DNA from: Thermococcus chitonophagus
GTDB lineage: Archaea > Methanobacteriota_B > Thermococci > Thermococcales > Thermococcaceae
Reading direction: 5' to 3'
Length of the DNA stretch: 64,000 nt
NCBI RefSeq assembly: GCF_002214605.1
Contig: NZ_CP015193.1
Coordinates: 600,978 to 664,977 of the forward strand
The notes under the pieces were generated by a model. It saw only the letters and a program-made list of their open reading frames with translations. It searched no databases and had not been told where the DNA came from. Position numbers and translations under genes: made by a program. Below, in pieces: positions 43,375 to 45,668 of the stretch. Numbering within the stretch: the stretch's first letter is position 1; each line of letters begins with the position of its first letter.

Positions 43375-43935
43375 TTAGCCCAGCCTGAATATATCAGACC
43401 GTGTAATGATCCCTATTGGCTTTCCATTCCTTCCTTGTACTATTACTGCAGGATGCTCCTCTAAGAGGTATTTAATAACCTCAAGATCCTCATCTTCTGA
43501 GACTAGAGGGAAGGGCCCCTCCATTATCTCTTCAACACTTCTTGAGTATATATCTTCATCTTCAAGGCTCTTCCTAACTAGGGCCCTTTCCGTAACTGAC
43601 CCTATGACTTTGTCTCCCTCCATAACAGGGACTTGGGAAATGTTGTGCTTCTTCATTAGCCTTACGACCTTCTCTACCTTGTCCTTTGGCGTCACGTAAA
43701 TTATTGGGGATGACATTATGCTCTTTGCTGTTACTTTTGCTTTCTGGCATTCAATTAAAGCCCTGAGTATCTTGTTAAACGTGGAGAGTCTTGGGTCAAC
43801 CTTTCCTGCTTCAAGCTTTGCTATGTATGCTTGAGTTACCCCGGCCTTTCTCGCTAGCTCCTCTTGGGTTATGCCAAGTTCCTTTCTAATCTTCTTGATA
43901 TCCCTGGGATCTATTGGCCTGGGTATTATCACCAT
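43375..43935 (-). CDS. HTH plus two CBS domains, putative transcription regulator
   Basis: A 186-residue protein joining an XRE-type helix-turn-helix (IRKELGITQEELARKAGVTQ then AYIAKLEAGKVDPRLSTF) to two CBS domains (AKSIMSSPIIYVTPKDKVEK and VEEIMEGPFPLVSEDED). CBS pairs bind adenosyl ligands, so it may tune transcription to energy state. I start at the ATG at 43935, with GGAGGTTATTGC upstream; the frame stays open to 44034 but that part lies in the H/ACA RNA gene and is not coding. The gene lies 74 bases before pdhA on the same strand and could regulate it. Confidence 0.88.
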   Translation of the reverse strand: MVIIPRPIDPRDIKKIRKELGITQEELARKAGVTQAYIAKLEAGKVDPRLSTFNKILRALIECQKAKVTAKSIMSSPIIYVTPKDKVEKVVRLMKKHNISQVPVMEGDKVIGSVTERALVRKSLEDEDIYSRSVEEIMEGPFPLVSEDEDLEVIKYLLEEHPAVIVQGRNGKPIGIITRSDIFRLG

Positions 43936-43982
43936 GCAATAACCTCCAGTTATTATTCGAAAAAATGATATTAAATTTTTGC

Positions 43983-44135
43983 TGTAGGCCGGCAACAGAG
44001 ACCCAGCGGTCATTGATCCCGCGGGCGGATGCACCGGCCCTGTGGGCTCGGCGTGAGCACACCCCGCTCATCGAACCCGAGACCTTGCGGGGGCGGGTGG
44101 ACCGAGCCCTTGCGAGGGAATTGTACCCTCGCTGT
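43983..44135 (-). ncRNA. H/ACA guide sRNA, two guide hairpins
   Basis: A GC-rich island in an AT-richer genome, read on the reverse strand. Two hairpins each end in ACA. Hairpin 1: outer stem GGGCTCGG (44109-44102) with CCGAGCCC (44051-44044), inner stem CCCCGC with GCGGGG, a GATGA k-turn side, then ACA at 44043-44041. Hairpin 2: outer stem GGCCGG (44039-44034) with CCGGCC (43992-43987), inner GCGG/CCGC around GATCAATGA (k-loop), then ACA at 43985-43983. Unpaired pockets between stems are about 10 bases each side, as needed to guide pseudouridine formation. A third, plain 7-bp hairpin (GCGAGGG/CCCTCGC, 44132-44112) forms the 5' end. The gene for Gar1, a protein of this RNP, lies 1.3 kb away. 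It may be one of the hgc RNAs known from P. furiosus; I cannot tell which. Confidence 0.82.
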
Positions 44136-44157
44136 CGGCAGTTGGTTATTCAATAAA

Positions 44158-44172
44158 GTTCTTAAAAACCCT
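44158..44172. promoter_or_regulatory. Shared bidirectional promoter for the two guide RNAs
   Basis: GTTCTTAAAAACCC reads as a TATA box in both directions. Rightward it is about 24 bases before the C/D RNA 5' stem (44189). Leftward it is about 25 bases before 44140, just ahead of the H/ACA RNA 5' hairpin. Confidence 0.5.
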
Positions 44173-44188
44173 TACGGTAGTGATCCTT

Positions 44189-44246
44189 GGCGGATGACGA
44201 GCCTTGCCCAGCCTGAGCTGTGATGATGTCGGTATTAGCTGACGCC
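44189..44246 (+). ncRNA. C/D box guide sRNA
   Basis: A compact 58-base RNA with all elements: terminal stem GGCG (44189-44192) with CGCC (44243-44246); box C GATGACGA (44193-44200); 12-base guide GCCTTGCCCAGC; box D' CTGA (44213-44216); spacer GCT; box C' GTGATGAT (44220-44227); 11-base guide GTCGGTATTAG; box D CTGA (44239-44242). Such RNAs direct 2'-O-methylation five bases upstream of each D box in rRNA or tRNA. Targets are not identified here. It lies 17 bases before the Cas4-like gene. Confidence 0.85.
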
Positions 44247-44263: not shown

Positions 44264-44881
44264 ATGATAGAATTCTACGCTAGTGAAGCCCTAATATGTC
44301 CTCGAAGGGTTTGGTTTAGATTAAAGGGATTTCCAGAAAGGTGGCCCGAGATAGCTAAACCCAGGCTCGAGAAAGGAGTTAAAACTCACGAAGTCCTGGG
44401 GAAGGTACTTGAAGAAAAATTCGGATTCGAACTTGAGAAGGAGATAATCTTGAGATTTCCAAGGCTTGGGTTCGAAATTCACGGCAGAATGGACGCCTAT
44501 AAGGAATTTCCAATTGAGATAAAGGGTAAATCATCCCTACCTAGGTTTCCCCTTGAATACCATCTCGCCCAGTTGAACGTATACCTCAGGTGGAGCGAGG
44601 CTGAATACGGCTACCTTTACTACCTTAAGCTCCACGACGATCCAACTAAAATCGTGAACGGGCTTAACTTTGACAATTTTCCCAGGGTAAATGGGAAGAA
44701 CTTTAAGATGTTCGAGGTTCCCTACGATCCCATACTGTTCAAGGAGACGGTAAAATTCTTCTATGATATCAAGCTCTACCTAGATGAGGATGAGATGCCC
44801 TCGGGAGCGAAAGGCCCTCACTGCAAGTTCTGTCCCTATAGCTACATATGCCTCTCTCATCAGTTGGACGGATTCTTATAG
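44264..44881 (+). CDS. Cas4-like PD-(D/E)XK exonuclease with Fe-S cluster
   Basis: A 205-residue Cas4/RecB-type nuclease. One Cys near the start (ALICPRRVWFRL) and three near the end (CKFCPYSYICLSH) would bind a [4Fe-4S] cluster. The nuclease motif is GRMDAYKEFPIEIKGKS (Asp, then E-x-K) near residues 74-90, followed by HLAQLNVYLRWSEAEYGYLY (motif QxxxY-like). No cas1, cas2 or repeats are nearby, so it is a stand-alone paralog that may act in DNA repair rather than spacer acquisition. Start ATG follows GGAGGGAGCCCA. The 3' end overlaps the convergent phosphodiesterase gene by six bases. Confidence 0.85.
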   Translation: MIEFYASEALICPRRVWFRLKGFPERWPEIAKPRLEKGVKTHEVLGKVLEEKFGFELEKEIILRFPRLGFEIHGRMDAYKEFPIEIKGKSSLPRFPLEYHLAQLNVYLRWSEAEYGYLYYLKLHDDPTKIVNGLNFDNFPRVNGKNFKMFEVPYDPILFKETVKFFYDIKLYLDEDEMPSGAKGPHCKFCPYSYICLSHQLDGFL

Positions 44882-45370
44882 CATCCAAACATTGTAAAAT
44901 TTCACGTCTACATCTTCTCTGCTGAGGTTGAGAATTGCAAAACTCGGCTCGCTGAGCCTTGGCAAGGTTGGAGATCCTGGGTTGATGAGGATTACTCTCT
45001 TTCCCATGTAGGAAACTTCGTTGTAGTACGGCCTGTGAGTGTGCCCAAATACTAGAATATCCGCCCCCTCCTCAAGTGCTTTGTAGACTAAGTTCTGAGA
45101 GCTCAGTGAGAGGAATTGATGCCCGTGGATAATCAGGATGTTCCAGTCAAACACCCTCAGGACTTCCTCTTCGGGTAGTTTAAAAGAATCTGCATTTCCT
45201 TTCACGGCTATTACTGGAGCTACTTCTTCAAGAATTTCAATCAGAGCCTTGTCCTGTACATCTCCAGCGTGCACTATGTACTTGACACCTTTCTTCTTAA
45301 AGAAGTCCTTAACCTTGTCGGGAAAATATGCCTTGGGGAAGTGAGTATCGCTAATAACCCCTATCAACAT
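44876..45370 (-). CDS. YfcE/MJ0936-type metallophosphoesterase
   Basis: A 164-residue calcineurin-like phosphodiesterase. All metal motifs are seen: D-x-H in GVISDTHFPKAYFP, GDVQD in YIVHAGDVQDKAL, GN-x-D in AVKGNADSFKLP, His in LIIHGHQFL and GHTHRPYYN, then NPGSPTLPR. Homolog MJ0936 hydrolyses bis-p-nitrophenyl phosphate in vitro; the natural substrate is unknown. Independent gene, with Gar1 25 bases upstream on the same strand. Confidence 0.92.
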   Translation of the reverse strand: MLIGVISDTHFPKAYFPDKVKDFFKKKGVKYIVHAGDVQDKALIEILEEVAPVIAVKGNADSFKLPEEEVLRVFDWNILIIHGHQFLSLSSQNLVYKALEEGADILVFGHTHRPYYNEVSYMGKRVILINPGSPTLPRLSEPSFAILNLSREDVDVKFYNVWML

Positions 45371-45395
45371 CGGCGAGGTCCCCTCTCATCACACT

Positions 45396-45668
45396 TCAGA
45401 ATTTCTTCTTTCTCCTCATCTGTTTCTTTTCTTTCTTCTTTTTCCTGGTATCGATATAGAGCACCTCACCAACGTATTTCTCGGGATCTTTAACCTTTGG
45501 CTTGATAGCTACGTACGGGGCTTTAACTGGCCCGAAAACATCCTTAACTATCCCAACGAACCTTAGGTTCTTGTCAATGACTTTATCATTAAGCGAGGGC
45601 ACCCAGGTTGTTCTCACGATCAAGAACCCCTGCTTGGCGTAGTGGGAAACTTTTCCGAGCCTCTTCAT
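45396..45668 (-). CDS. gar1: H/ACA RNP protein Gar1
   Basis: A 90-residue Gar1, the H/ACA RNP subunit that binds Cbf5 and helps substrate turnover. The six-stranded core spans KRLGKVSHYAKQGFLIVRT, FVGIVKDVFGPVKAPYVAIK and DPEKYVGEVLYI, followed by a lysine/arginine-rich tail (RKKKKEKKQMRRKKKF). Starts with ATG at 45668 after GGTTGGGGTTGAG. The H/ACA guide RNA gene at 44 kb is a likely partner. Confidence 0.93.
   Translation of the reverse strand: MKRLGKVSHYAKQGFLIVRTTWVPSLNDKVIDKNLRFVGIVKDVFGPVKAPYVAIKPKVKDPEKYVGEVLYIDTRKKKKEKKQMRRKKKF

Follow-up and report, generated by a model that had tools for sequence, protein, structure and literature searches.

In the window, by which I mean the whole stretch of 64,000 nucleotides analysed here, an H/ACA guide RNA gene and a C/D guide RNA gene lie back to back among protein-coding genes, as follows.

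43375-43935, minus strand: HTH-CBS regulator gene (Pfam HTH_3 and CBS), downstream of HgcF
43972-44139, minus strand: HgcF/Pab35 H/ACA guide RNA (Rfam RF00058, 209.1 bits against a cut-off of 70)
44189-44246, plus strand: C/D sRNA including its closing stem GGCG/CGCC, with boxes read from the sequence
44190-44245, plus strand: snoPyro_CD C/D guide (Rfam RF00095, 54.8 bits against a cut-off of 45)
44194-44200, plus strand: C box ATGACGA, read from the sequence
44199-44212, plus strand: D′ guide, 12 Watson-Crick pairs with 16S rRNA GCUGGGCAAGGC, from 16S position 455
44213-44216, plus strand: D′ box CTGA, read from the sequence
44220-44226, plus strand: C′ box GTGATGA, read from the sequence
44227-44238, plus strand: D guide, 11 pairs, including two G-U, with 16S rRNA GUAAUACCGGCG, from position 484, in the 530-loop region
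44239-44242, plus strand: D box CTGA, read from the sequence
44264-44881, plus strand: cas4-like (DUF83) gene (Pfam Cas_Cas4, 22.3 bits, just below the cut-off of 22.7)
45396-45668, minus strand: gar1 (Pfam Gar1, 34.2 bits against a cut-off of 29.3)

The Rfam scan of the window gave three matches above cut-off, all at this locus. The RF00058 alignment of HgcF is full-length (168 positions). The plus-strand RNA is a C/D box sRNA by its C, D′, C′, and D boxes, its closing stem, and its RF00095 score, and the overlapping match on it is sR12 (RF01147, 39.0 bits). Thus, the covariance models bear out the claim of an earlier note on this DNA that guides of both classes lie divergently on opposite strands. 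The back-to-back layout also stands, but the spacing of 54 bases given there is corrected to 49 nt, counted between HgcF G1 (44139) and the G that opens the C/D closing stem (44189). Both RNA starts in the spacing figures are defined by the models.

HgcF belongs to the same family as the known Pab35, and no difference was seen in the RNA itself; its upstream neighbour in Pyrococcus is unlike that in other genera. According to PMC4652768, the P. abyssi copy is transcribed (318,227-410), with a 5′ end 4 nt longer than the model start. The HgcF coordinates in one of the genomes searched (G004) are those printed there for Pab35, and this genome was taken as P. abyssi. That paper also describes the P. 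abyssi Pab21 H/ACA and snoR9 C/D guides, which are likewise linked but lie on one strand in one transcript, whereas the pair in the window is divergent. The window C/D RNA and the Pyrococcus snoPyro_CD sRNAs are alike in the four boxes, the closing stem, and the two guides.

What may the guides modify? The 12 pairs of the D′ guide were equalled by 4 of 300 shuffled guides against 16S and by 18 of 300 against 16S and 23S together. The 11 pairs of the D guide were equalled by 35 of 300 and 78 of 300, respectively, so that this pairing is weak alone. The two targets are 29 nt apart on 16S. C/D-guided 2′-O-methylation usually follows the fifth-base rule, which predicts methylation at 16S positions 459 and 488 in the numbering of the window genome. 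I take these to correspond to about E. coli G505 and U534, by way of the universal 530-loop sequence. In the species of locus L019 (1392-1449, minus strand), there is one additional base ahead of the D′ box and the spacing to C′ differs, and the D′-guided 16S target would move by one nucleotide. For HgcF, a simple guide-pocket scan against rRNA gave no clear site.

Promoter-like sites between the two RNA genes

A 16-bp promoter matrix was built from the sequences preceding 24 tRNA genes of the window genome; 30 of its 45 tRNA matches were fetched as loci, and six of these, close behind another RNA gene, were excluded. The matrix scores BRE and TATA together as one site. It yielded the sites below, which are listed with the near-palindrome.

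44151-44166, plus strand: predicted BRE-TATA of the C/D RNA, CAATAAAGTTCTTAAA, score 6.9, from -38 to -23 relative to GGCGG
44158-44169, no strand: near-palindrome GTTCTTAAAAAC, the shared box, axis at 44163.5, self-complementary at 10 of 12 positions
44162-44177, minus strand: predicted BRE-TATA of HgcF, CCGTAAGGGTTTTTAA, score 7.8, from -38 to -23 relative to HgcF G1
43982-43967, minus strand: promoter-like site of the HTH-CBS gene, over the HgcF 3′ tail, score 6.7

Scores as high as those of the HgcF and C/D sites occur at fractions of 0.00038 and 0.00055 of window positions, respectively. The TATA octamers (44159-44166, plus; 44162-44169, minus) overlap by 5 bp and are offset by 3 bp; when both strands are read in one identical 8-bp register (44161-44168), the scores are 3.6 and 1.6. 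From the axis of GTTCTTAAAAAC, it is 24.5 nt to HgcF G1 and 25.5 nt to the C/D stem. Thus, the box is at a working distance from both RNA starts, as the earlier note had proposed; a median of 23 bp between TATA and start is given for T. kodakarensis in PMC4247193. The symmetric 14-base box described in that note needs revision. It begins at 44158 and not at 44159. Over the full 14-mer, a hand count gives only 6 of 14 self-complementary positions, but its first 12 bases form the near-palindrome. A symmetry of at least 10 is reached by 4 of 77 HgcF boxes of other genera and by about 4% of random stretches of the window.

At a score of at least 5, the window contains 69 sites on the plus strand and 78 on the minus strand. 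These form 11 overlapping opposite-strand pairs, the HgcF-C/D pair included, so that bidirectional boxes are common and not rare. In PMC6640164, differential RNA-seq of P. furiosus detects antisense transcription that begins about 50 bp upstream of the primary start; among 49 strong head-to-tail cases, 38 are reported to carry a BRE-TATA-BRE motif. In vitro, both RNAs were produced by one promoter from starts 49 bp apart. The HgcF-C/D locus shares with these cases the midway TATA, RNA starts (model-defined here) about 49-50 bp apart, predicted sites on both strands, and the genus, and its promoter looks like a type already known in Pyrococcus. The cases analysed closely there pair an mRNA with an antisense RNA assumed to be non-functional; in contrast, the products in the window are known stable guide RNAs of two classes. 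A description of the HgcF-C/D shared promoter was not found in the open-licence literature, supplements aside, and may be in print.

I consider it likely that two ancient guide genes stand back to back here with core promoters overlapping on one pseudo-symmetric BRE-TATA-BRE box. The promoter would also serve the cas4-like gene. The C/D sRNA lies within the leader of this gene, with 21 nt from the D box to the ATG, and no promoter-like site was found inside the leader (best matrix score -10.2). Since the RNA is in the leader and an internal site is lacking, the shared promoter probably drives the cas4-like gene as well.

Conservation within and beyond Pyrococcus

Is the shared box conserved in other Pyrococcus species? 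Nine Pyrococcus genomes were searched, eight of which have sequence upstream of HgcF. The C/D RNA lies upstream of HgcF in all eight, while in the ninth genome the two RNAs are on separate contigs. The spacers are 49, 49, 49, 48, 48, 50, 37, and 74 nt. All eight loci have their best C/D-direction site beginning 36-39 nt before the C/D stem, and seven have their best HgcF-direction site beginning at -38. The exception is L005 of P. abyssi, where the HgcF site at the box scores 1.9 against 2.6 elsewhere and the C/D site scores 2.3, all of them weak. In the six loci with spacers of 48-50 nt, both sites overlap at one box, with octamers sharing 5-7 bp. Where the spacer is 37 nt (L003) or 74 nt (L007), the C/D site has shifted along with the C/D RNA, resulting in two separate boxes, each at the proper distance from its own RNA. 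Thus, each RNA keeps a promoter at a fixed distance, and sharing arises when the spacer superposes the two. The claim of a single box for both RNAs holds insofar as the sites on the two strands overlap and one box is seen in six of the eight Pyrococcus loci; it is qualified by the 3-bp offset of the registers and by the two loci with separate boxes.

The same data bear on another explanation, in which two separate promoters overlap with TATA registers 3 bp apart and exclude each other sterically, without a common TBP site. The offset of the best registers (44159-44166 and 44162-44169), the separate boxes in L003 and L007, and the sR12/sR34 pair described below, which has two facing boxes at a gap of 36-37 nt, are all consistent with it. 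On the other hand, the identical register 44161-44168 scores on both strands, and the palindrome is centred almost midway between the two starts. I regard this explanation as unlikely, and prefer overlapping core promoters on one box. Against this preferred reading, the P. abyssi HgcF transcript is reported in PMC4652768 to begin 4 nt upstream of the model start, which puts the TATA of that species a little close.

The 10/12 palindrome is present in five of the six sharing loci, compared with the 4 of 77 HgcF boxes of other genera; these six loci are related, three being nearly identical, and contain only three different boxes. Scored in the antisense direction, the HgcF boxes of the six sharing Pyrococcus loci do not significantly exceed those of the 77 loci of other genera (p=0.098), and 39 of the 77 reach the lowest value among the six. 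These comparisons cover 90 loci less five (L008, L065, L096, L110, and L124), in which the start motif was inexact or upstream sequence was absent. Selection for bidirectionality in Pyrococcus was considered and is unsupported by this comparison. The HgcF box is two-faced by nature across much of Thermococcaceae, and the C/D gene may have done no more than arrive at a position from which the HgcF box was usable.

It was also assessed how the two RNAs are arranged in the whole family. Of 94 Thermococcaceae genomes, 91 contain a match to HgcF and 90 a match to a sequence model of the C/D RNA, which is strong (E<=5e-13) in 88. Both RNAs could be placed in 84 genomes. They lie within about 240 bp of each other in eight of these, all Pyrococcus. 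None of the 75 genomes of other genera links HgcF and the C/D RNA; the two are on one contig in 42 of them (nearest, 130,500 bp) and on different contigs in 33. A second, weak HgcF-like match of 24.6-36.8 bits (cut-off 70) occurs in seven genomes outside Pyrococcus (G013, G019, G029, G031, G060, G067, and G072), and is possibly a diverged paralogue.

The context of the C/D RNA was read for 45 of the 88 strong matches. The best 30 with loci represent Pyrococcus and two other genera, and a further 15 were chosen afterwards from the other three genera. The C/D anchors vary by one or two bases among loci. L020, L027, and L166 are among the loci that end at contig ends, so that neighbours beyond could be missed. 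Outside Pyrococcus, each of the 37 loci, which represent five genera, has its best C/D-direction site beginning 36-40 nt upstream of the RNA, with scores of 4.6-12.0 (22 loci) and 6.6-11.5 (15 loci). A cas4-like gene lies 3′ of the C/D RNA in 42 of the 45 loci (30/30 and 12/15); the three loci without it in the stretch inspected, just under 1 kb, are L199, L208, and L209, the three read from one genus.

Could the C/D RNA be trimmed from a longer read-through transcript, with no need for a promoter, so that the box serves HgcF only? According to a review of six archaea (PMC7994747), only about 20% of their C/D genes have a TATA-like motif within 50 nt; the window C/D gene differs from most archaeal C/D genes in having its own promoter-like site. 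In the window genome, 10 of the 30 C/D matches examined (of 42), the window C/D RNA included, have a site scoring at least 5 at the right place. In addition, a C/D RNA of this family stands behind a tRNA in L032 (1126-1263 and 977-1031), a MAG contig outside the 94-genome set and not a Pyrococcus-type locus, in a tRNA-C/D-cas4-like unit: it follows the tRNA by 8 nt, precedes a cas4-like gene, and is probably transcribed from the promoter of the tRNA. Thus, an own promoter is not obligatory for this RNA. These points agree with read-through. However, the C/D-direction site is at a kept distance in all 45 loci read, even where the spacer has changed, and plus-strand read-through from upstream would run antisense across HgcF. 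I find this explanation very improbable for the window. An sR58 C/D RNA also lies nearby in L032, on the other strand.

The simplest history suggested by these distributions would be a head-to-head joining, in the ancestor of Pyrococcus, of two units that already had a promoter each. The order of events in the spacer is only suggested, because the HTH-CBS gene tree leaves the placement of L007 as an open fork.

A candidate promoter for two guide classes

From the computed RNA identities, sites, spacing, and distribution, I infer the use of TBP and TFB, the starts, the co-transcription of the leader, and the rearrangement. TBP would sit on the box, some 25 bp away from either start, and the side on which TFB binds would set the direction, giving HgcF or the C/D RNA per binding event. 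The products would be a pseudouridine guide (HgcF) and a 2′-O-methylation guide (C/D RNA) predicted to act on 16S near the 530 loop. The C/D RNA, in the cas4-like leader, would probably be read from the same promoter as that gene. In the Pyrococcus ancestor, a rearrangement would have brought the HgcF and C/D-cas4-like units together in head-to-head orientation, and after the joining the two older promoters would have come to overlap.

The earlier note had also proposed that one promoter would co-regulate the two guides. This is a hypothesis that the data do not support: one TBP site with TFB bound either way could equally make the directions compete, or leave them independent. PMC12825309 reports that bidirectional promoters of E. 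coli have basal activity without competition, while strong activation of one direction possibly represses the other. For the HgcF-C/D box, competition is at least as plausible as co-regulation. A more specific form of this, in which the rearrangement merged the promoters into a single TBP site and the pseudouridine and methylation guides arise in mutually exclusive initiations at a ratio set by the two BREs, is in my view quite unlikely. The species whose spacers measure 37 and 74 nt provide natural controls for the un-merged state. In any case, the same two stable RNAs with spacers of 37, 48-50, and 74 nt form a small natural series, which offers material for studying the use of a single archaeal TATA box in both directions and any competition between them. 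Both products are known stable RNA families and not noise transcripts. The locus suggests that gene joining may merge two promoters with neither RNA lost. The arrangement itself is ordinary in kind and well conserved; what the analysis adds is the constancy of the promoter distances, a proposed history of joining, and two species whose boxes are separate.

A second head-to-head guide pair was seen, consisting of the C/D RNAs sR34 and sR12. It occurs at L044, 1412-1554 (60693-60838 in the window genome), and at L185-L195, with gaps of 2 nt (L185, L186, and L188), 36-37 nt, or 80 nt (L187 and L190). At 36-37 nt (five loci scanned), each RNA has a site at -38 or -39, so that two boxes face each other. 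At 2 nt (three loci), a recognisable promoter site was found for neither RNA.

Neighbouring genes

The earlier note had pointed to gar1 near the locus. The gene is real (Pfam Gar1), but it was found as a neighbour in Pyrococcus-type loci only, where the whole block is syntenic, and the functional link was rejected as evidence. In other genera, flanks of up to 1.5 kb were inspected at 21 HgcF and 22 C/D loci and gar1 was not found there; its proximity looks incidental. An sR52 C/D RNA at 45368-45420 (minus strand) is below threshold in the window (47.2 bits, cut-off 50), where it overlaps the gar1 3′ end and the first bases of a phosphoesterase gene. It is above cut-off at the matching place in L003, L005, and L019.

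On the other side of the locus, the HTH-CBS gene follows HgcF in all nine Pyrococcus loci and in 13 of 21 non-Pyrococcus loci (one of the rest is cut short). The inverted repeat AATAACTGGAGGTTATT (43938-43954, minus strand) covers its ribosome-binding site, and an exact AATAAC-N5-GTTATT is present in 14 of 30 HgcF loci within the stretch inspected. The repeat is a possible operator for self-regulation of the HTH-CBS gene.

Between the C/D RNA and the cas4-like start, a conserved GC-rich hairpin with a GAUGA/GA internal loop was seen just after the C/D RNA in all 15 folded loci of one genus, g3 (L162, L163, L167, L169-L171, L173, L175, and L178-L184), while it was not seen in eight Pyrococcus leaders or seven leaders of genus g5. 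By eye, the folded hairpin looks like a kink-turn, and it is possibly an L7Ae site in the mRNA leader.
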